Translations under genes and position numbers: made by a program
The notes under the pieces: model-generated
Told to the model about the DNA's origin: nothing
What the model saw: the letters and a program-made list of their open reading frames with translations, nothing else
Database searches by the model: none
Assembly: GCA_903844735.1 (NCBI GenBank)
Contig: CAIMUX010000047.1
Location: 1-64,000, forward strand
From: Candidatus Eiseniibacteriota bacterium
Lineage (GTDB): Bacteria > Eisenbacteria > RBG-16-71-46 > CAIMUX01
DNA length: 64,000 nucleotides
Direction: 5' to 3'
In this document: piece after piece, positions 28,472 through 47,642 of the stretch
Layout of the letters: each line of letters begins with the position of its first letter
Numbering within the stretch: position 1 is the stretch's first letter

Positions 28472-28513
28472 CAGAATTCAGAACTCAGAATTCAGAATAC
28501 AGAATACAGAATA
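28472..28513. repeat. Heptanucleotide tandem repeat CAGAATN
   Basis: Six uninterrupted 7-base units with consensus CAGAATT/CAGAATA occupy 28472-28513, between two secreted-protein genes. It belongs to the same repeat class as the arrays at 41677-41731 and 42813-42847, but here no inverted partner array is visible nearby. Confidence 0.85.
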
Positions 28514-34604: not shown

Positions 34605-34800
34605 TCGTGAACCGCCTTCTACCGCCTGTCGTCCATAGCCGCAAGCACCGCTGTCCGTTCCCCCGTGGGCGCCGCGGAGTCCTGGTTCATTGTACCCCCG
34701 GGGCGCGGACCCTGAGTCGGCTTGGGGAGTATATGCGGCGGTGTCGAATACCGCACGGGCGACCTCTGTCCGGGCACGATTCCCTTCCCTGCGAGGACTG

Positions 34801-37800
34801 TTGAGCCGAACTTGTGCAACATACGGCCTGGTTCTCGCGATCGGCCTACTCTTAGCCGTGGGCCTTCTAATGCTCGGTGGAGGCTGTGTTCCTTCCGAAG
34901 ACTCTAAGCCGCCCCGCGAGAAGCCCCCGGCCGAGATCCGAGAATCCGCGCCGGTCGACTCCTTGGCGGAGCGGATCGAGAGCCCGGTTGTCGCTCCTGC
35001 GCCTGCGATCCGACCCGGGTCCGCCGTCGAGACCACACCATCGTCGCCGGCTCCGCCTCCTTTGTCTTCGGTCAAGCCGGACACGGCCGGTCCGGCATCC
35101 CCGGTCCGAGCTCGGCCTGACACGACGGCTGTTGCATCGGCCACGCCGCCGTCGGCAGATTCCACCCGAGCGGCGGCGTGGATCCCGGTCCGCGACGACA
35201 CGATGCGCGCGGCCCCTCCTGTACCGGACCTTGGAGATACGACCCGCGTCGCGGGGTTTCCGGCTGGGGCGCCCTTGGACCCGACCCGAGTGGAGGTGCC
35301 GGCCCCGATTCCGCTTCCCCCGCCGGTCGTTGCCCAAACGGCGCCCGCTGAGACCTCGGCCGTGGCACCGATCCCCGCCGGCCGCCGTCTGACGCCGCCG
35401 CCGCCTGATCGCATTCCGCCACCCCGCAGCGCTGTTGCACAGCGCCCGATTCCAACGGTTCCCCTGGTCGTGACGCCGCCGCAGCCTGACTCCCTACCTG
35501 GGGCGACCGGGCTGTGGGCCTTCGCGACCGGCACAAATCCCGCCGATGATGCCACTCTCTACTACCTCGCTTCAGGGTGGTGGTCACGGGAGACGATCCG
35601 GCGGGAGGGGTTACTCAAGCCCGAGATCCAGGCCCGCGAAGATTCAATACCGCTCCGGCTCTTCGTGCCTCGCTTCACCGGGGTGAAGCGTCAGGAGCTG
35701 GTCTCCGCGCAGGTTGCCGCTCAGCTCGATTCCGGCACCGTGGAAGTGTGGACGGAGCTGCGCGAGACCATCGTGGGGGCGCGGGTACGGCTGCGTCAGG
35801 ATGACTATCTGCGCCGGCTGACCCGGAAGACCTATCGCGAGCAGACCGTCGTGGAGGCCGCGCGAGGGCTCAAGGCGAATCTCACAGCCTCCTCGCGCCG
35901 CGGGCTGGTCAAGATCGACCTGCCGGTCGAGCTGCCCGCCCGGCTGCAGTCGGTGTTCGGAGAGGGGAAGCCGAATCTCTCCGTGCGCGGGAGCGAGCGG
36001 ATCAGCTTCGCCGGCACCAGCCGATGGCGGCCTAAAGAGATCCGCACCGAGATCGCCCGGAAGCAGTCGAAATTCCCCCAACTCGACATGAAGCAAGAGC
36101 TGAACCTCCAGCTGACCGGAACGATCGGTGACAAGGTGAGCGTCGATGTCGACCAATCCAGCCAGGCCTCCACGCCGTTATCCAACCGGATCAAGATCCA
36201 CTACAAGGGCTATGAAGACGAGATCCTCCAGCGGGTCGACCTCGGGAACACGAGCCTCAGTCTCCCGGGCACGCAGTATGTCTCTTACGGCGGCAAGGCC
36301 GAGGGGCTGTTCGGCATCAACGCGCAAGCGCGGCTGGGGCCGGTCGAGATCACCACCATCCTGACAAAGCAGGAGGGGAAGACCGATTCCAAGTCGGTGA
36401 CCCGCTCGGCCGAGACACGCACGGTGAAGATCATCGATCTCGATTATGTCGCAGGGAAGTACTTCTTTCTGCTCAGCCCGGACTCGTGCCTGTGGCAACT
36501 TGACGAGGCGTCACTGGATGTCTTTGTCGACGACGGGATCGGCACCAACGACGAAATCGACGGAGCGGCCGCGGCGCGTGCCACGGTCACGGGGGCGGTC
36601 GAGGCTGACTCCACGACCTACCGCGGTAGCTTTCGGCGCCTGATCCCCGGCGATCCACCGGCCGGTGAGTACCGCATCGAGCGGCAGATCTACACCGGCC
36701 ATCCGGTTCTCGTCTTGAACCGGGCCATCGAGGAGCGCGAGGTCCTCGCGGTGCTTTGTTCCGGCTGGCGGCTCGATGCAAGCCTCCAGCGCGTGGAGTC
36801 TTCGTTTTTCGAGGTGGGCCGGGCCACTCCCGGGGACTCCCTTCAGTTGAAGGTGGTGCGGCCCAGTCTGTCTGACCCCCGGGTGGACCTCACCAACCTC
36901 CGGCGAGGCCCCTGGGCCCCGTTGAGCAATCTCGAGCTGAGGAACATCTACGACCTCGGTGCGCGGGGAATCCTCAAAGAGGGATTCGACTGCAAGATCC
37001 GTCTGCAGAAGACCATTAGCGGTGTGCAGCCCGATCGGGTCGGCGACATCACCTTCCTGCAGATGACAGGCTTGGATCTTTCGCGGGAGACGAGCACCGG
37101 CCAGATGCCGGGTCGCGATGACCGGATCGACCCGCAATTCATCTCCCTGGCGAGCGGGACGATCATGTTTCCCGATTTGCGGCCGTTTGATCCGGACGCC
37201 ATCGACCTCGGGATCAAGCCCGTGTCCTGCCTCCCGGCGTTCTACCGATTCTTGAAGTGGGGGGAAGGGGACAACATCCGCGAGGCGCGGCCCGCGGCCC
37301 TGCCCGGGATCACCAATCCCGACTCTGCGGCTACGTTCCGCGCCCCTTCGATCTACGATCGGATTCTGCATCAGGATCCGCAGGCCGACAGTCGGTACTT
37401 CATCGAGGTGACCTACCGCAGTCCGGTGAGTCGGATCCAGTTGAACGCCTTCGGCATTCTTCTCGGGAGCGAGTCGGTGACAGCCGGCCAGCGGGCGCTG
37501 GTGCGCGATCGCGACTATCGCATCGACTACGAAATGGGTGAAGTGGAGCTCCTCGAGGCAGCGAACGTCACGGAGCAGGAAGAGATCCGGGTCACCTACT
37601 CCTACGAGGGTTTTGGGGGCGGAGGCGGTTCGAAGACACTGGCCGGGGCATCGGCATTTCTCCGGCCGGAGGGCGCTGCGTTCAGTGGGTCGTCTTCGTG
37701 GTTGTACGAGAGCAAGGGTGGGGTTCCGGGGCTGGAGGGGAAGCGTCCGCGCCTCGGGCAGGAGCCTTCCCGGACGGTCGTGGGCGAGCTCGCAGGGGCC

Positions 37801-40800
37801 TGGAAGACCGATTCCAAGTTCCTCACGAACATGGTCGACCAACTCCCCGGGATCGATGCGCGGCTGCCGTCCAAGCTCGACATCGGATTCGGCGCCGGGT
37901 TCTCGCTGCCCAATCCGAATACCAAGGGCAAGCTCTACATTGACGATTTCGACGGGGTGAAGGATGTTCTATCGCTGAGCATGAGTCGTCGGATGTGGCG
38001 TCCGGCGTCCATTCCGATTTCCTCAATCCTTCCCGGCAGCAATCTTCCGCCGTCGGCCGCCAGAGACTCTCTGCGGGCTGCGGCCCAGGGTGATCTCCGG
38101 TGGTTCTCGCCGCGCAACACCGCTCGTGAGAGCGATTTCCAGCCGACCCTGGAGACGCGCGAAGGGGATGACAGTCGGCAGATTCTGCAGATGCGCGTCT
38201 CTCCGCGGGGGACGACTCCACAGGAGAAGAAGAGCTCGTGGGCGGGTATCGTCCAGGTGCTTTCCGCCCGCGGCACCGACCTTTCCCGGGCCCAGTTCCT
38301 GGATGTCTGGGTCAACGACCGCCGGCAGTATCGGCCCCACCCCGACCCGTCGCAGCAGCGCCGCGGCACTCTGATCATCGACATCGGGACGGTGAACGAA
38401 GACGCGATGTGGTATCGCAACAACCCGGCATATCCGGAGCAGTACACGCTCCATAGGCCCAACGGGAAGCTCGATACGGAGGATCAGAACCGGGACGGTC
38501 GACTCGACCAGGGCTCGAATCTGGATGAAGACACCGGCCTGGATCAGAAGAAGAGTGGAATCACCGGGGCCGACCCGTTCGACGTCTACCGCTACGACGA
38601 CAACCTGCCGGAGACGGATCCCGACAAGTACGCCTCGGTGAACGGCACCGAAGGAAACCAGGAACTCGACACCGAAGACCTGAACGGCAACGGTGCCCTC
38701 GACCGCCTGAACAGCTACTTCCAGGTGGCGATTGACCTGGCTGACTCGACCCTCTGGGAGACCGATGTCTACCGCGACTACGTGTTCAAGAACTCGAACG
38801 CCAAACCCGACCTCGTCAAGCCGGAAAACGGCTGGCGCCGGATCCGGATCCCGTTGCACGACGACAGCCTGGTGTCCCGTTGGAAAGACTTCGAGGCCGC
38901 CAGCCCGGTCTGGGAGAAGGTCTTTCACCTGCGGATGTGGGTCACAGGGTTTGAGGAACCCACCGATCTGGAGATCGGAGGGATCGAGATCACGGGAAAC
39001 CGGTGGTTCGAGAATGCGATCGCCGACACCCTCGACCGGTCGGTCCCCGAAGGCTCGCTCGCGCCGGGCGAGGAGTTCTTCGTCGGGGTGGTGAACAACA
39101 AGGAGGACGCCAACGTCTACGTGCCGCCGGTCTCCACGGGAAAGCAGGACAACATCACCGAGCGCGAGCAGTCGATCGCGCTCAATGTGAAGAACTTCAA
39201 GCGGTGGCACCGCGTCTCCATCTACCGAAGCTATCCGCAGAGACAGGACTACACGCTTTACGAGAACATGGAATTCTACCTGAAGCACGGAGCGTTGACG
39301 GATACCCTCCTTCGACCGATCAACCCGGGCGACGACAGCCTGGAGTGTGCCATACGGCTCTGCCGAGATGCCGGATCGGACACGACGAATTACTACGAGT
39401 ACAGGCGCCCGGTGTCGGCTGCTTGGGATCTGGTCCGGATCGACTTCGCCGAATTGAGTCGGCTGCAACTGGTGGAGTCGCCCGACCCCGCCATACAGAG
39501 AGTGGAACGTAATCTGGGCGGCGGTGTGTGGATGACCCGCCAGGGGAGTCCTTCCCTCACCAGTATCCAGCGGATTGTCTTCCTCGTCACAAATCGCGGG
39601 AACGTGATCGGGAAGGGCAGCGTCTGGGTCAACGAACTGCGCCTGATCGGCGTGAAGAAGGATCCCGGCTATGCGGCTCGCTTCAGCATCAATGCCGACC
39701 TGACCGGGCTGGCCCGGCTCAGCTTCAACATCCAAAGGACGGAAGCCGACTTCCTCAAGATCGGCCAGGATCGAGGAAGCGGAACCACCAGTACCAATTG
39801 GAACTTCAATGGATCGACGGAGCTCTTCGGGTATGCAAGCCGTTTGGGGGTCACCATGCCTATCAGCGGCTCGATCACGTCCACCCGGGCTGTGCCGAAG
39901 TTCCGCACGAACAGCGACCTCATTCTGGATCGGGCCGAGGATCGCGATATCTCGGTGAATCGCACGCAGGACCTCTCCCTTAGCCTCTCCAAGCGGCCCG
40001 GGCGGACTTGGTTAGGGCGCTACATTGTCGAGCCGTTCTCGGCCAACGCGAGCTATCGAACGGCGGTGAGCTTGCAGCCGACGCAGTGCGATACCACGGT
40101 CAACCGTTCGGCGGGAGTGAGCTGGAGCCTTCCGCTGGATCAGATCGGTCAGAAAATCGGCCTACGGCTCAACAAGAGCGGGCAGACCAAGCTGCTGCTG
40201 ATCCCCACATCCCTCTCGGCGAGTCTGGCAGGCGGTGAGGCGCGCGCGATCCGGTACAGCGCGACGAACAACCTTCGTCCCTACGTGAAGCAGCCGAGTT
40301 CGTCCACCCGCAGCGGGACACTGAACATTTCGGCAGGCGCCCGCCCGATCACTCCGGTGATATACCGGATCGATACCTCCCGCGACCTCATGCTGCATGA
40401 GGACCAGCTCAACTGGCTGGGGCTCAATCTCGGGCGCGAGGTGAGCCGCAAGCATCAGCTTAACGGCACCTTTCCGCTCCCGGTCCTACGGCAGTTGCTG
40501 GGACCCAGTGTGAACTGGTCGGGCAGCTCAAGCCTCACCCTTGCCAAGCAAGGACAAGGGGGGAGCGGTACCAATGAGCCGAGCCGGGAGAACGATTTCG
40601 GCAACTCCCGGTCCACCGGCTACGTGGCGCGTTTTTCGCCCGACGTGCTGGGGCGCTGGTTTGGGAGGATCGTGCGTAGTCGGGCGCGGCCGGATTCGAC
40701 CGGGGCGAAGACCGCGGCACCGACGAGCACGGGAAGCCTCGTCGGGCAACGGTTCCGTTTCAACACCGTCAACATGAACTACTCCGTCGCCAACCAGACA

Positions 40801-41655
40801 AGCTTCACGCGGCAGACGGGCGAGCCGGATATCCTCTACCAGTTGGCACTGGCCGACAAACCAGGCGCGCGGGTGCGGGCATTGTCCCGGGCTTCCGATA
40901 AAAAAGGGACCAGCAAGAGCCTTACTCTCGACTCCAACGCCCAACTGCCCGCTGGTGTGACCGTCACCGCGCGCTACTCTCGTACCGCCGGGACGAATTC
41001 CGACAACGGGCTTGCCGTCAAGAACCTCACCAGTAAGTGGCCGGACCTGAGCGTGAACTGGGGGAATGCCTTTCAGAAACTCCGCCTGAATCGTTTCTTC
41101 AAGACCTTCCAAGGGACCACCAACTACAATCGCGAATACCGCGAGCAGGGGAAGGCGCAGGGCGAGCGAGACCAAGTCACCCGCAGCAGCAACTTCACTC
41201 CTTTCCTGAACCTCAGTGCTTCGACCCGTTCGGGGATCACAACGACCTTCAGCTCTTCGAATCGGTCCTCCTCCACCGAGCTCTTCCGGCCGACGCGAAG
41301 CATTTCCAGCACGAGAAACCGCCAGCTCGGATTCGGTCTGAAGAAGACGCTCAACCTGACGCGTAAGGTGACCGTGCCGCTCACCGGGCAGATGAAGACG
41401 GTCCAGACGACCCTGAATGTCAACGTCGACTTCGACTGGAAGGCCGACCGTTCCGAGAACCGCAGTGCGGGGCAACGGCCGACCATCATGACGGACATGG
41501 CGAGTTGGCGGTTTCAGACCGGGGTCGGCTATCAGTTTACTGCGGCCATCAGCGGCAACGGTTCGATCAACTTCGGACAGGAGAGCAACAAGAAGAACCA
41601 GGCGCTCACCGCTCGTTTCATCGGCATCTCGGTCTCGGCCAGCTTCACTTTCTAG
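34801..41655 (+). CDS. sprA: SprA-like type IX secretion translocon protein
   Basis: A 2284-residue homologue of SprA/Sov, the giant outer-membrane barrel that conducts type IX secretion. Recognisable SprA stretches include KIHYKGYEDEILQRVDLGNT, VSYGGKAEGLFGI, KQEGKTDSKSVT, PGEYRIERQIYTG-like segments, IYDLGARGI and KLYIDDFDGVKD, then a strand-rich C-terminus ending ISVSASFTF. The N-terminus is unusual: a hydrophobic leader ending MLGGGC (Cys29) followed by ~220 residues of Pro/Ala/Thr-rich low complexity. TTG 34801 is chosen because it gives a normal-length leader with GAGGAC upstream; the frame is open back to 34690. Length is close to the ~2400 of Flavobacterium SprA. Confidence 0.88.
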   Translation: MSRTCATYGLVLAIGLLLAVGLLMLGGGCVPSEDSKPPREKPPAEIRESAPVDSLAERIESPVVAPAPAIRPGSAVETTPSSPAPPPLSSVKPDTAGPASPVRARPDTTAVASATPPSADSTRAAAWIPVRDDTMRAAPPVPDLGDTTRVAGFPAGAPLDPTRVEVPAPIPLPPPVVAQTAPAETSAVAPIPAGRRLTPPPPDRIPPPRSAVAQRPIPTVPLVVTPPQPDSLPGATGLWAFATGTNPADDATLYYLASGWWSRETIRREGLLKPEIQAREDSIPLRLFVPRFTGVKRQELVSAQVAAQLDSGTVEVWTELRETIVGARVRLRQDDYLRRLTRKTYREQTVVEAARGLKANLTASSRRGLVKIDLPVELPARLQSVFGEGKPNLSVRGSERISFAGTSRWRPKEIRTEIARKQSKFPQLDMKQELNLQLTGTIGDKVSVDVDQSSQASTPLSNRIKIHYKGYEDEILQRVDLGNTSLSLPGTQYVSYGGKAEGLFGINAQARLGPVEITTILTKQEGKTDSKSVTRSAETRTVKIIDLDYVAGKYFFLLSPDSCLWQLDEASLDVFVDDGIGTNDEIDGAAAARATVTGAVEADSTTYRGSFRRLIPGDPPAGEYRIERQIYTGHPVLVLNRAIEEREVLAVLCSGWRLDASLQRVESSFFEVGRATPGDSLQLKVVRPSLSDPRVDLTNLRRGPWAPLSNLELRNIYDLGARGILKEGFDCKIRLQKTISGVQPDRVGDITFLQMTGLDLSRETSTGQMPGRDDRIDPQFISLASGTIMFPDLRPFDPDAIDLGIKPVSCLPAFYRFLKWGEGDNIREARPAALPGITNPDSAATFRAPSIYDRILHQDPQADSRYFIEVTYRSPVSRIQLNAFGILLGSESVTAGQRALVRDRDYRIDYEMGEVELLEAANVTEQEEIRVTYSYEGFGGGGGSKTLAGASAFLRPEGAAFSGSSSWLYESKGGVPGLEGKRPRLGQEPSRTVVGELAGAWKTDSKFLTNMVDQLPGIDARLPSKLDIGFGAGFSLPNPNTKGKLYIDDFDGVKDVLSLSMSRRMWRPASIPISSILPGSNLPPSAARDSLRAAAQGDLRWFSPRNTARESDFQPTLETREGDDSRQILQMRVSPRGTTPQEKKSSWAGIVQVLSARGTDLSRAQFLDVWVNDRRQYRPHPDPSQQRRGTLIIDIGTVNEDAMWYRNNPAYPEQYTLHRPNGKLDTEDQNRDGRLDQGSNLDEDTGLDQKKSGITGADPFDVYRYDDNLPETDPDKYASVNGTEGNQELDTEDLNGNGALDRLNSYFQVAIDLADSTLWETDVYRDYVFKNSNAKPDLVKPENGWRRIRIPLHDDSLVSRWKDFEAASPVWEKVFHLRMWVTGFEEPTDLEIGGIEITGNRWFENAIADTLDRSVPEGSLAPGEEFFVGVVNNKEDANVYVPPVSTGKQDNITEREQSIALNVKNFKRWHRVSIYRSYPQRQDYTLYENMEFYLKHGALTDTLLRPINPGDDSLECAIRLCRDAGSDTTNYYEYRRPVSAAWDLVRIDFAELSRLQLVESPDPAIQRVERNLGGGVWMTRQGSPSLTSIQRIVFLVTNRGNVIGKGSVWVNELRLIGVKKDPGYAARFSINADLTGLARLSFNIQRTEADFLKIGQDRGSGTTSTNWNFNGSTELFGYASRLGVTMPISGSITSTRAVPKFRTNSDLILDRAEDRDISVNRTQDLSLSLSKRPGRTWLGRYIVEPFSANASYRTAVSLQPTQCDTTVNRSAGVSWSLPLDQIGQKIGLRLNKSGQTKLLLIPTSLSASLAGGEARAIRYSATNNLRPYVKQPSSSTRSGTLNISAGARPITPVIYRIDTSRDLMLHEDQLNWLGLNLGREVSRKHQLNGTFPLPVLRQLLGPSVNWSGSSSLTLAKQGQGGSGTNEPSRENDFGNSRSTGYVARFSPDVLGRWFGRIVRSRARPDSTGAKTAAPTSTGSLVGQRFRFNTVNMNYSVANQTSFTRQTGEPDILYQLALADKPGARVRALSRASDKKGTSKSLTLDSNAQLPAGVTVTARYSRTAGTNSDNGLAVKNLTSKWPDLSVNWGNAFQKLRLNRFFKTFQGTTNYNREYREQGKAQGERDQVTRSSNFTPFLNLSASTRSGITTTFSSSNRSSSTELFRPTRSISSTRNRQLGFGLKKTLNLTRKVTVPLTGQMKTVQTTLNVNVDFDWKADRSENRSAGQRPTIMTDMASWRFQTGVGYQFTAAISGNGSINFGQESNKKNQALTARFIGISVSASFTF

Positions 41656-41676
41656 GAGCGTAACGACTCGGGTGGC

Positions 41677-41846
41677 CAGAAGTCAGAATCCAGAAGTCGG
41701 AAGACGGAATCCAGGAGTCAGGAGTCAGAGTGATGAGGCTGGGGACGAGCCTTGAGGACTTGGTGGTGTGGCCAAGGGCCCGCCGGAAGGGGTCAACATG
41801 CATTTGGAATCCTATTCGCAGGCCTCTACTGAATTCTGACTTCTGG
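41677..41846. repeat. Heptamer inverted-repeat element with possible four-helix-bundle remnant
   Basis: Heptamers of form CAGAAGT/CAGAATC/CAGGAGT run from 41677 to about 41731. At 41830-41846 the complement appears, so that CCAGAAGTCAGAAT at 41676-41689 is exactly inverted there. Between them a 42-codon frame from ATG 41733 reads MRLGTSLEDLVVWPRARRKG, close to the N-terminus of four-helix-bundle (S23/IVS-type) proteins, which usually begin with a (F/L)EDL-VWQ-AR pattern. The rest of such a gene is missing. The heptamers are clear; the remnant is inference. Confidence 0.6.
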
Positions 41847-41872
41847 ATCCCGTCTACTTGAAGGGAGGCTGC

Positions 41873-42784
41873 GTGCGCAGGTGCCTACTCGTGGTTCTCG
41901 GTCTTTGGCCGGCCCTGCTCGCCGGTTCGGCGGGGGCCGGCGTCCCGTCCTTCGACGGCCGCGAGGCCCAGGGCTGGATCGAGCGACAGTGTGCCCTGGG
42001 GCCGCGGGTTCCGGGAACCAAGGCACACGAGCGCTGGGTCCGGGTGGTGACGACCTATTTCGATTCGCTGCGGGTGTCGGTCCGCCGGGAAGATTTTCGT
42101 CGCCCCTCGCCGTTCGGAGCCGACACCCTGCGGTTGACGAACCTGATCGCCTCCATCCGCCCGGGAATTCGCCCGCGGCTGCTCCTCGGCGGGCACTGGG
42201 ACAGTCGACCGTGGGCGGATTCAGATCCGGACCCGGCGATGCGCAACCTGCCCGTGCCGGGGGCCAACGATGGCGCGTCTGGGGTGGCGGTGCTCCTCGT
42301 GCTGGCGCGGATGATGCAGGAGCACCCGCCATCCATCGGGGTCGACCTTGCGTTCTTCGACATGGAGGACATGGGGCGGTCGGGGCACTCCGAGGAGTAC
42401 TGCCAGGGAAGCCGCCACATGGCGACCAACTGGCCCGGAACCCTTCCCGATTGGGTGGTGGTCCTCGACATGGTCGGGTCCGAGGCTGCCCAGTTCGGCC
42501 GGGAGGCCTATTCGGTGCAGCAGGCCCCGGATCTGGTCGACATCCTCTTTCGGCTCGCGGAGGAGAAGGGGTATCGGGAGTGGAATCCACAGAGCGAGTA
42601 CGCTGTCGTCGATGACCACCTCTCGTTCCAGGCCGTCGGGGTTCCGGCGGTGGATGTGATCGGATTCAATGATCCGAATTGGCACACCCGGCAGGATCTC
42701 CCTATGCATACCAGCGCGTTGCGCCTCTTCCGGGTCGGCACGATCATGTCCGAGTTGGTGTGGGGTGGCCACCTCGGGCGCTGA
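41873..42784 (+). CDS. Secreted M28-family metallopeptidase (glutaminyl-cyclase-like)
   Basis: A 303-residue exported zinc hydrolase with signal peptide (about 1-22, ending AGA). The M28 metal-site pattern is visible: GGHWDSRPWAD (His108, Asp110), PGANDGASG (Asp133), FFDMEDMG (Glu165, Asp166) and WHTRQDLP (His271). The family includes aminopeptidases and glutaminyl-peptide cyclotransferases; spacing and overall length are closer to the latter, but I cannot choose. GTG 41873 follows GGGAGG; a TTG at 41858 is in frame but less well placed. It stands alone between two heptamer-repeat elements and could process secreted proteins. Confidence 0.86.
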   Translation: MRRCLLVVLGLWPALLAGSAGAGVPSFDGREAQGWIERQCALGPRVPGTKAHERWVRVVTTYFDSLRVSVRREDFRRPSPFGADTLRLTNLIASIRPGIRPRLLLGGHWDSRPWADSDPDPAMRNLPVPGANDGASGVAVLLVLARMMQEHPPSIGVDLAFFDMEDMGRSGHSEEYCQGSRHMATNWPGTLPDWVVVLDMVGSEAAQFGREAYSVQQAPDLVDILFRLAEEKGYREWNPQSEYAVVDDHLSFQAVGVPAVDVIGFNDPNWHTRQDLPMHTSALRLFRVGTIMSELVWGGHLGR

Positions 42785-42812: not shown

Positions 42813-42965
42813 TTCGGGCTTCGGGCTTCAGGCTTCAGGCTTCGCGCCGGAGGGCGTCGAGCAGTCGCCTGGGGGCCGCGAATCAGTTCGCCGTACCGGG
42901 CCACGAGTTCGGCGTGGTCCTCCGCGCTCATGGCCTGCCCTGCCGAAGCCTGAAGCCCGAAGCCC
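42813..42965. repeat. Second heptamer inverted-repeat element
   Basis: Five heptamers TTCRGGC run 42813-42847 and three complementary GAAGCCY units lie at 42945-42965. A 21-base block (42816-42836) is perfectly inverted at 42944-42964. Between them, on the minus strand, a frame from ATG 42931 reads MSAEDHAELVARYGELIRG, which resembles the C-terminal helix of four-helix-bundle (S23-type) proteins, then runs into the heptamers. The inverted repeat is certain; the protein remnant is weak. Confidence 0.6.
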
Positions 42966-45222: not shown

Positions 45223-47642
45223 AGGTTCGAGTCTTCCAATTGGCCAGGGATCTCAAGATTTCCAGCGACGCCCTGGTGAACATCATCACCTCCCTCGGTG
45301 CGGAGGTGAAGGGCCATATGAGCTCGGTCGAGGACGACCTTGTGGTGCGAATCCGCGCGAAGATCGCGGAGGAGCGGGCTGTGGTCAAACGCGAGACTGA
45401 GAAGAAGGCCCACATCCAGGAGGGGATTCACAAGAAGGCGGAGGACGCCCGTCCGCGCCCGGCACCCCCGGTAGCCTCCCCCCCGGCGACCCCCACGCCC
45501 GCACCGGTCGCCCGTGCCGCTCCTCCGACGTGGACCCAGCCCGCGCCATCGCCTTCACGGACCTTCCCGCCCGCGACTCGCCCGGCACCGCCGCCTCGGT
45601 ACAACTCGCCTTCGCCGCCACCGTCGCGGTATGGCTCGCCTCCGCCGGCACCGCCGCGGGGAGCTCCTGCCTTCCCTCCGCCGGCCCCCGGACAGCGGGG
45701 ATCCGTTGACACGTCCCGCGGTCGCGGCAAGGACCGCAAGAAGGGCAAGAAGCGCTCCATCGACGAAAAGGCGGTGAAGGAGAGCGTTCGCCGGACTCTC
45801 GCCAACATGGAGGGTTCGCGGCGTCGTACCCCCCACCGGCGGCGCCGAGGCGGTGAGGGAGGGGAGGCGACGGAGACTAACATCCTTCGCGTACACGAGT
45901 TTGCCACCGTCGGGCAGCTTGCCTCGATCATGGAGGTCCGGCCGGCCGAAGTGATCACCACCTGCATCTCTCTCGGTATCCTGGCGAACATCAATACGCG
46001 CCTCGATAAGGACGCCCTGACCACGATCATGGACGAGTTCGGCTACGAGCCCGAGTTCCAGCTCGAATACGGTGCCGAAATCCTTTCGAAGCAGGATGAA
46101 GAAGAGGCGGGGAGGGACTTTACCAGCAAGGGGCGAGCCCCCATCGTCACAGTGATGGGCCACGTCGACCACGGAAAGACGAGCCTCCTCGACCATATCC
46201 GCAAGACACGGGTCATGGACGGCGAGTCGGGCGGCATCACCCAGCACATCGGCGCCTATCAGGTGAAAGTGCCGCCGGGGACGATCACATTTCTCGACAC
46301 GCCCGGACACGCAGCGTTCACCGCGATGCGCGCTCGGGGCGCCCAGGTTACCGACATCGTGGTGCTCGTGGTGGCGTCCGACGACCGGGTCATGCCGCAG
46401 ACCATCGAGGCGATCAACCACGCCAAAGCCGCGGGTGTTCCGATGGTCGTCGCCATCAATAAGATCGACCTTCCGGCCGCGAACCCCGACCGGATCCGCA
46501 AAGAACTGGCCGACAATGGCGTCTTAGTGGAAGAGTGGGGTGGCAAGACGGTCGCGGTTGAGATCTCGGCCAAGCACGGGACGAACGTCGATCGGCTGCT
46601 GGAGATGATCCTGCTGCAATCCGAACTCCTTGAGCTCAAAGCAGAGCCTGATCGCAAGACCCGCGGCGTGGTGCTGGAGGCGAAGCGGGATCCGCACCGC
46701 GGTATCATCGTCACGGTCCTCGTGCAAAACGGGACCCTGCGGGTGGGCGATCCGTTCGTTAGCGGAGCGCAGCACGGCAAGGTACGTGCCATGACCAATG
46801 AGAAGCGGGAGCGTCTCCATGAGGCGCCGCCGGCTACCCCGGTGGAGATGACGGGCTGGTCCGGCGTGCCACAGGCGGGGGATGGTTTTCACGTGGTGAA
46901 GACCGAACAGGAGGCGCGGGAGATCGCCGGCACTCGGGCAGCCATCGCGCGCGAGCATGAGCAGCGGCTACGGGGCCAGGCCGTGTCCCTTCTGAGCCTG
47001 CAGGAGCGGATCAAGAAGGGTGAGCTCCATGAGCTGAATCTGGTGGTCAAGGCGGACGTGGGTGGTTCGCTCGAAGTGCTCCGCGAAACCCTGCCCAAGC
47101 TTTCCACGGCTGAGGTCAAGGTGCGGGTCATCCACGAAGGGGTCGGGCTCATCAACGAATCGGATCTTCTCCTGGCCCTCGCGTCGAGGGCGATCGTCAT
47201 CGGCTTTCACACCCGGCCTGACGCGAAGGCGCACCAGATGGCGCTGACCGACGGTGTCGATGTCCGACTCTACCGCGTCATCTATGAGGTGGAGAAGGAC
47301 ATCAAGGACGCCATGAGCGGCCTGTTAGCTCCCGAGAAGGTGGAAAAGATCGCCGGCTCGGCGGAGATTCGCAAGGTCTTCCACGTTACGAAAGTCGGCA
47401 ATGTGGCCGGCTGCTTTGTCGTTTCGGGCGCCGTGCACCGTGGCGACCAGGTTCGCGTGTATCGGGGAGCCGACGTGATCTGGACCGGCCGCCTCGCTTC
47501 GCTGAAGCGGATCAAAGATGATGCCCGCGAGGTCAACGCCGGATTCGAGTGCGGGATGTCCCTCGACGGATTCGAGGACATCCAAGAGGGCGATATTGTC
47601 GAGGCTTTCACTGTGGAGGAGATCGCCCGCCGCATCGAGTAG
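45219..47642 (+). CDS. infB: Translation initiation factor IF-2
   Basis: IF-2 recruits initiator tRNA and promotes subunit joining using GTP. The 807-residue protein has an N-terminal IF2N helix region ([20 protein letters not shown]), a Pro/Ala-rich linker (about 75-165), a second IF2N-like part and a GTPase domain. The GTPase motifs are [14 protein letters not shown] (about 314-327), DTPGHAAF and [11 protein letters not shown]. The C-terminal domains follow. GTG 45219 overlaps the nusA stop (GTGA) and has GGGAGGGTG upstream. Co-expression with nusA is the norm. Confidence 0.97.

Follow-up and report, generated by a model that had tools for sequence, protein, structure and literature searches.

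The short segment between a sprA gene and an M28 peptidase gene in the window (the whole 64,000-nucleotide stretch of DNA that was analysed) is, with a probability of roughly 0.8, a decayed copy of a minimal mobile element, deleted internally in the manner of a MITE. We are surer still that it is a remnant of such an element, made of heptamer arrays and a four-helix-bundle gene. Deleted copies of the element are dispersed over 40 or more loci of this genome. Because intact relatives occur across Bacteria, Archaea and some viral contigs, a single element appears to unite two features of microbial genomes that have long lacked an explanation, the arrays of 7-base repeats and the proteins of the S23 family. 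The copy in the window is laid out as follows:

41653..41655, + strand: stop codon of sprA (ORF 34690-41655, SprA_N match with E=5e-19)
41660..41675, + strand: left terminal repeat GTAACGACTCGGGTGG, with 3 mismatches to the family terminal repeat (consensus GTWACTACTCAGGTAG)
41677..41729, + strand: left heptamer array, CAGAAGT CAGAATC CAGAAGT CGGAAGA CGGAATC CAGGAGT CAGGAGT CAGA
41733..41786, + strand: remnant of the start of the four-helix-bundle gene, recognised by the DNA match of 41660-41781 to the family and by the HMM matches of sibling copies; 41751-41786 reads LEDLVVWPRARR (family consensus FEDLVVWQEAR)
41787..41825, + strand: scrambled or deleted interior, helices 2-4 missing
41826..41855, - strand: right heptamer array CTACTGAATTCTGACTTCTGGATCCCGTCT, complementary to the left array
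41852..41866, + strand: right terminal repeat, degenerate, GTCTACTTGAAGGGA (consensus GTCTACCTGAGTAGTAAC), its end uncertain by several nt
41873..42784, + strand: downstream M28 peptidase gene, which together with sprA marks the insertion site

The element starts 4 nt 3' of the sprA stop codon, and its right terminal repeat was placed by reading the window sequence against the ends of the family. The earlier note had described CAGAAGT-type heptamers before, and their complement after, a 42-codon frame, at 41676-41861. Both arrays are present (41677-41729 and 41826-41855), and the frame between the arms (41730-41861), which reads LEDLVVWPRARR, has 42 codons when counted from the ATG at 41733 and 43 from a GTG. 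We widened the interval to 41660 to about 41866 to take in the degenerate terminal repeats GTAACGACTCGGGTGG and GTCTACTTGAAGG. The idea that this is the scar of a small mobile element built from heptamer arrays and a four-helix-bundle gene, with the body of the gene deleted, was also borne out, by helix 1 of the sibling copies, by intact flanked genes elsewhere and by empty sites.

The inverted tandem heptamer arrays flank the remnant on both sides, with 85% complementarity over 27 nt and 90% over 21 nt (about 80-90% overall), and the whole segment folds better than 198/200 shuffles (z -2.6). The 14-mer CAGAAGTCAGAATC was found 12 times in the window (with up to 3 mismatches), as compared with 3.3 occurrences expected, and a count of 12 was reached in 0/100 shuffles. 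Pfam and NCBIfam gave no match with the short remnants, which are too short for the profile filters. The protein identity of the window copy follows from its alignment to the sibling copies. Rfam gave no match and no rRNA in the window, nor was a reverse transcriptase match found within it. The copy adjoins protein genes (sprA and M28 peptidase), i.e. it lies outside 23S rRNA, where the intervening sequences (IVSs) considered below are located in helix 9, 25 or 45.

Elsewhere in the window, a second inverted heptamer pair, G+C-rich (TTCGGGC/TTCAGGC), has its left arm at 42813..42844 (+) and its right arm at 42943..42965 (-). These arms (21 nt, 100% complementary) are 108 nt apart and form a related heptamer pair, which may belong to the same family as the CAGAAGT element. 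A short frame (MSAEDHAELVARYGELIRG...) in the ~100 nt between them is vaguely like the last helix of a four-helix bundle, a likeness without statistical support, and the pair (42813-42965) was absent among the best 25 matches of the four-helix-bundle HMM search. A solo array of six CAGAATT/CAGAATA heptamers, with no partner arm, was seen at 28472..28513 (+), just 3' of a stop codon.

The window copy belongs to a family dispersed in its genome, which is available as a 5.4-Mb draft assembly. An array 21-mer had 38 matches genome-wide and its reversed control had 0; with a degenerate form of the pattern, the counts were 248 and, for the control, 9. The family was found by reading the flanks of other arrays, and the genome was then searched with a 207-nt query. 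This gave 63 matches genome-wide, clustering at 40 distinct loci on 29 contigs. The plan of the family is a terminal repeat (GTWACTACTCAGGTAG), heptamers, ATGAGGACGCTCCTCGACGAGATTTGAGGACTTGGTGGTGTGGCAAGAGGCC..., inverted heptamers and again the terminal repeat; the window copy matches the family element over 41660-41781 with 75% identity (E=9e-17). Terminal inverted repeats, as expected of MITEs, are therefore present on the dispersed copies, GTWACTACTCAGGTAG being common to about 45 element ends, and only 4 complete copies with both ends were detected in this genome by the strict motif. One copy (L096) is a solo palindrome of 58 bp with a clean duplication of 9 bp, CGCTATTGG, on its two sides. 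In another (L083), a second terminal repeat lies a few bases inside the first, which is the pattern that a nested insertion would leave. The strand of the deleted copies relative to genes showed no clear sense bias (15:10 and 12:12). Inspection of 30 terminal-repeat loci of the draft assembly revealed no insertion sequence or transposase gene with matching ends. Three reverse transcriptase genes are present in it, and they are only candidates for the enzyme role discussed below.

Composite arrays were also observed in this genome (L010 1492-1550, L020 1479-1538 and L029 1505-1549). Their unit shifts stepwise at a constant 7-nt period, for example from GGCTTCG to CTGAATC to CTGTCTA, as though constraint acted on the period rather than on the sequence. 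At L015 (about 1560-1700), an apparent group II intron 5' end (GTGTGTGCCAGGCATGGCACG...GTGAAAGTCCCC) lies ~50 nt from an element copy.

Further evidence on the nature of the lost gene was obtained with an HMM built from ten intact four-helix-bundle genes and applied, with the filters switched off, to every frame of the deleted copies. The sibling copy L067 (RFEELPVWRAAHQLVLEAYRLSRTFP; helix 1 FEELPVWRAAHQLVLEAYRLSRTFP) was matched with E=4e-8, and L062, L061 and L064 with E=6e-4, 7e-4 and 3e-3, respectively, while the best E among 3360 shuffled frames was 2.1. The leading matches were nearly all on the gene strand. The remnant match breaks off behind helix 1 and does not reach the SIPANIAEG core. 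Through the sibling copies, the remnant is thus seen to be homologous to the TIGR02436/PF05635 N-terminus. The proposal that the 42-codon frame begins like an S23/IVS-type protein accordingly holds for these siblings, which keep helix 1, and the window copy by itself had no significant protein match. No full-length TIGR02436/PF05635 gene was found in this draft genome or at the window copy. The Nostoc C052 plasmid contains, at the Trichormus insertion site described below, a gene cut at nearly the same place (...FPKSEIY). Truncation of this kind at the 3' end has therefore occurred more than once.

Empty sites, which should exist if the feature is the scar of a mobile element, were found both at the sprA-M28 junction and in cyanobacterial plasmids. 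In 8 relatives of the same order in which sprA and the M28 gene are still neighbours, the junction is short and has no heptamers, and the insert of about 200 bp is present only in this genome. Trichormus plasmid C was compared with cyanobacterial plasmids that are 97-98% identical around the site, and the gene and both arrays were absent in the latter. The empty site is AAAAAGTAATTAACAAAT and the filled site is AAAAAGTAAT - [ AAATCAGAATTCAGAAG ... GAGTTCTTCTTT ] - GTAATTAACAAAT, with a possible 5-bp duplication (GTAAT). In another Nostoc plasmid family, two neighbouring junctions are occupied by different elements in different plasmids, and by none in others; one insertion is at a TAATG stop-start overlap, and the second junction has TTCTA at both ends. 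The cas10-cmr3 junction is filled in Picosynechococcus PCC 7003 (L206) and empty in the related PCC 7002 plasmid. A four-helix-bundle element is also present at cas6-cas4 of the Anabaena sp. 90 plasmid (L195). No clean empty counterpart was found for the TraM junction and the cas6-cas4 sites, because their flanks differ. The target duplications are individual readings, of 9 bp in one copy (L096) and of a possible 5 bp at two plasmid sites.

At the cyanobacterial plasmid sites, the gene and its two arrays are thus either all there or all missing. The empty plasmid records could in principle result from loss, but insertion explains the short junctions more simply. Pseudanabaena galeata (NZ_CP112875, about 46271-47128) has a four-helix-bundle element inside or beside cas genes.

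Intact genes flanked by heptamers, likewise to be expected of a mobile element, were common in other phyla, some of them with CAGAAGT/CAGGAGT units, whereas a search of 46 other genomes from the same class or phylum yielded none. A scan yielded 80 named intact loci across many phyla, from Bacteroidota, Chloroflexota, Planctomycetota, Acidobacteriota, Alpha-, Beta- and Gammaproteobacteria to Cyanobacteria, Spirochaetota, Kaiserbacteria, Omnitrophota, Methanophagales and others. At the 79 testable loci, the 280 nt on either side of the gene were aligned as inverted arms, with 289 same-locus windows as controls. The inverted arms exceeded the 99th percentile of the controls at 57/79 loci and the control maximum at 41/79, and arms swapped between loci passed the 99th percentile in 3.7%. 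In an extended set, arms were present at 89/114 loci, including 7/7 testable viral contigs. An order-of-units mirror test of the arms was set aside, since choosing the best alignment biases its outcome.

The tandem period of the arrays was mostly 7 or 14 and less often 8 or 16, and no other period stood out. The number of units per arm was 4 or 5 in 69/91 arrays. An AG was found in 46/47 units, versus 31 ± 2.8 after shuffling (maximum 41 in 2000 shuffles). The unit sequences vary between elements, with a loose consensus AG[G/T][G/T][G/T/A]N[T/C]. Comparison of unit similarity with protein identity gave r=-0.19 (0/3000 permutations); the units therefore travel with the protein and yet change fast, the period and the AG persisting. 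CAGAAGT/CAGGAGT units, as in the window family, were found with intact genes of Trichormus, Aulosira and Nostoc that are 79-83% identical and occupy three unrelated sites (L194, L208 and L210).

Intact genes mostly lie downstream of a same-strand gene (57 versus 9, i.e. 57/66, as counted with a simple ORF caller, for which G+C-rich DNA brings some error). Because the deleted copies show no clear bias, we would ascribe this sense bias to selection for read-through expression and not to insertion into transcripts. Target-site duplications were not enriched over 75 intact loci in this cross-phylum comparison, and the element encodes no recombinase, transposase or reverse transcriptase.

Within the phylum, the matches in one genome (G030) were the only TIGR02436 matches. 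The only four-helix-bundle relative in the same order was the Avd of a DGR (L252, genome G004). Neither the genome nor the phylum yielded an intact element, so that the source element is missing. The DGR at L252 comprises an Avd-type four-helix-bundle gene, a reverse transcriptase, formylglycine-type target genes and variable repeats, and has no heptamer arms. At L046, arrays beside the gene were not seen by eye, and a reverse-transcriptase reading frame adjoins the gene. Genome G054 contains about eight pairs of divergent four-helix-bundle genes (L057, L045). At L057 (1034-1742), the pair forms one 709-bp near-palindrome with a gene in each arm, a plan unlike that of the heptamer elements.

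The fold predicted for the element protein (pLDDT 96) matched 2GSC (TM 0.9) and 2RLD, followed by Avd (4DWL, 8UB7), and judging from this model the protein probably shares the fold of all three. The 2GSC and 2RLD entries contain five chains each. Avd forms a pentamer and acts on RNA together with a reverse transcriptase. Structures of S23/IVP four-helix-bundle proteins have been solved, and to our knowledge these proteins have no known function.

The intact element is about 0.4-0.5 kb long and consists of a left array of usually 4-5 tandem heptamers (AGNNNNN inward), one TIGR02436/PF05635 gene and an inverted right array. It inserts between genes, often directly 3' of a stop codon. We propose that the protein may bind the heptamer arrays on DNA (possibly single-stranded), perhaps with one subunit per heptamer, as suggested by the number of units in an arm (4-5) and by the spacing of the AG. 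Bound protein would pair or protect both ends, and an enzyme borrowed from the host or from another element would cut and join. The cutting enzyme is probably borrowed, because the element has no recombinase gene, no insertion sequence with such ends was seen among the terminal-repeat loci inspected, and target duplications are not general. The deleted copies could be mobilised in trans, since both arrays are kept. That the protein acts as such an array-binding mobility factor has about an even chance of being right.

Movement could also have occurred at the level of RNA, a transcript hairpin with the gene in its loop being copied to new sites via a reverse transcriptase acting in trans, and the earlier note had indeed suggested that such elements spread as RNA-level hairpins. 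The complementary arms would fit this explanation, as would the Avd fold with its reverse-transcriptase partner, the three reverse transcriptase genes of this genome and the position of most intact genes downstream of a same-strand gene. There is also a precedent in the Coxiella 23S rRNA IVS, which bears an S23 ORF and is excised as RNA by RNase III (PMC4990558). However, a constraint to pair as RNA should favour G.U mismatches, and the arms of 89 loci had 142 G.U and 146 A.C mismatches on the coding strand; this comparison was run on 57 loci and then on 89, with a negative result both times. The deleted copies, moreover, have no clear orientation bias. RNA-level spread is therefore unlikely, and the equality of G.U and A.C mismatches and the unbiased deleted copies lead us to favour, if only somewhat, movement at the DNA level.

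Slightly less probable again than RNA-level spread is an ordinary MITE, the GTWACTACTCAGGTAG ends of which would be recognised by a conventional transposase, the arrays being incidental and the four-helix-bundle gene passenger cargo. The terminal repeats common to so many ends, the multi-copy deleted derivatives and the clean 9-bp duplication CGCTATTGG around the 58-bp copy are all as expected for a MITE. Yet no insertion sequence with such ends was present among the 30 terminal-repeat loci inspected, target-site duplication was not general over the 75 intact loci, and the plan of gene plus arrays is kept in other phyla despite completely different unit sequences. Finally, a static regulatory hairpin or terminator of slippage-expanded heptamers with a coincidental reading frame (as proposed for TAACTGA and GGGNATC) is most improbable: heptamer arrays are known as intergenic repeats with suggested regulatory or quadruplex roles (PMC4679880, PMC4692102), and the window copy follows a stop codon and folds well, but the dispersed copies have their ends and interior in common, along with a remnant that is recognisable as protein-coding sequence of one family, the sprA-M28 junction has no heptamers in 8 relatives, and arrays occur together with the gene at plasmid sites.

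The preferred reading thus remains a mobile element of which the heptanucleotide arrays are the arms and the S23-type protein is the sole gene, and this joined view offers a testable explanation for both. It would explain four-helix-bundle genes in cas operons (cas6-cas4, cas10-cmr3) as insertions, which may bear on the listing of '23S rRNA IVP' in one figure of an extensive survey of CRISPR systems (PMC10910872). Such an element, lacking its own recombinase, would lead one to ask which enzyme does the cutting. More tentatively, and with odds that we put a little short of even, these elements may represent a new prokaryotic class without a recognisable recombinase, in which a four-helix-bundle protein reads AG-phased heptamers and thus moves its own DNA of ~0.4 kb among Bacteria, Archaea and viruses; the IVSs of rRNA, like the TAACTGA and GGGNATC arrays, would then be special or decayed cases. 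A literature search, with subscription papers and preprints outside its scope, found no paper joining heptamer arrays outside rRNA to S23-type proteins.

Several known systems resemble parts of the element. Avd of DGRs has the same predicted fold (4DWL, 8UB7), but Avd genes accompany a reverse transcriptase and a variable repeat, and the same-order DGR at L252 lacks heptamer arms. MITEs and REP/REPIN are likewise short and multi-copy, with non-coding deleted derivatives and inverted ends, and apparently moved in trans; here, in contrast, no transposase with matching ends was found among the loci inspected, and the parent gene encodes a four-helix-bundle protein and not a DDE or RAYT transposase. 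TAACTGA arrays (Beggiatoaceae, Cyanobacteria, Bacteroidetes) and GGGNATC arrays (Xanthomonas, Nostoc) share the 7-nt tandem units and the intergenic, genome-wide distribution, but have been described without a gene partner, an S23 or four-helix-bundle gene being unmentioned in PMC4679880 and PMC4692102. Horizontal transfer was suspected for the TAACTGA repeats, with no mechanism known (PMC4679880), and no general association with mobile elements was reported for the GGGNATC repeats (PMC4692102). In GGGAATC arrays, four units are preferred, and 70-75 inverted pairs were counted in two Xanthomonas genomes (PMC4692102).

Of all the known systems, the nearest is an intervening sequence of rRNA that contains an S23 ORF. 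The 23S rRNA IVSs of Coxiella burnetii and Leptospira are also short, with inverted ends around one S23/IVP ORF and a sporadic distribution, and that of Coxiella has tandem heptamers (GACAGAT) just upstream of the S23 ORF (PMC4990558). Mobility of IVSs was hypothesised by Burgin (1990) and by Ralph and McClelland (1993), as cited in PMC4990558. Unlike IVSs, which lie inside rRNA, the present elements lie between protein-coding genes; both of their arms are heptamer arrays, with a sequence that varies between elements, and the present analysis shows for them empty sites outside rRNA as well as a multi-copy family of deleted derivatives.
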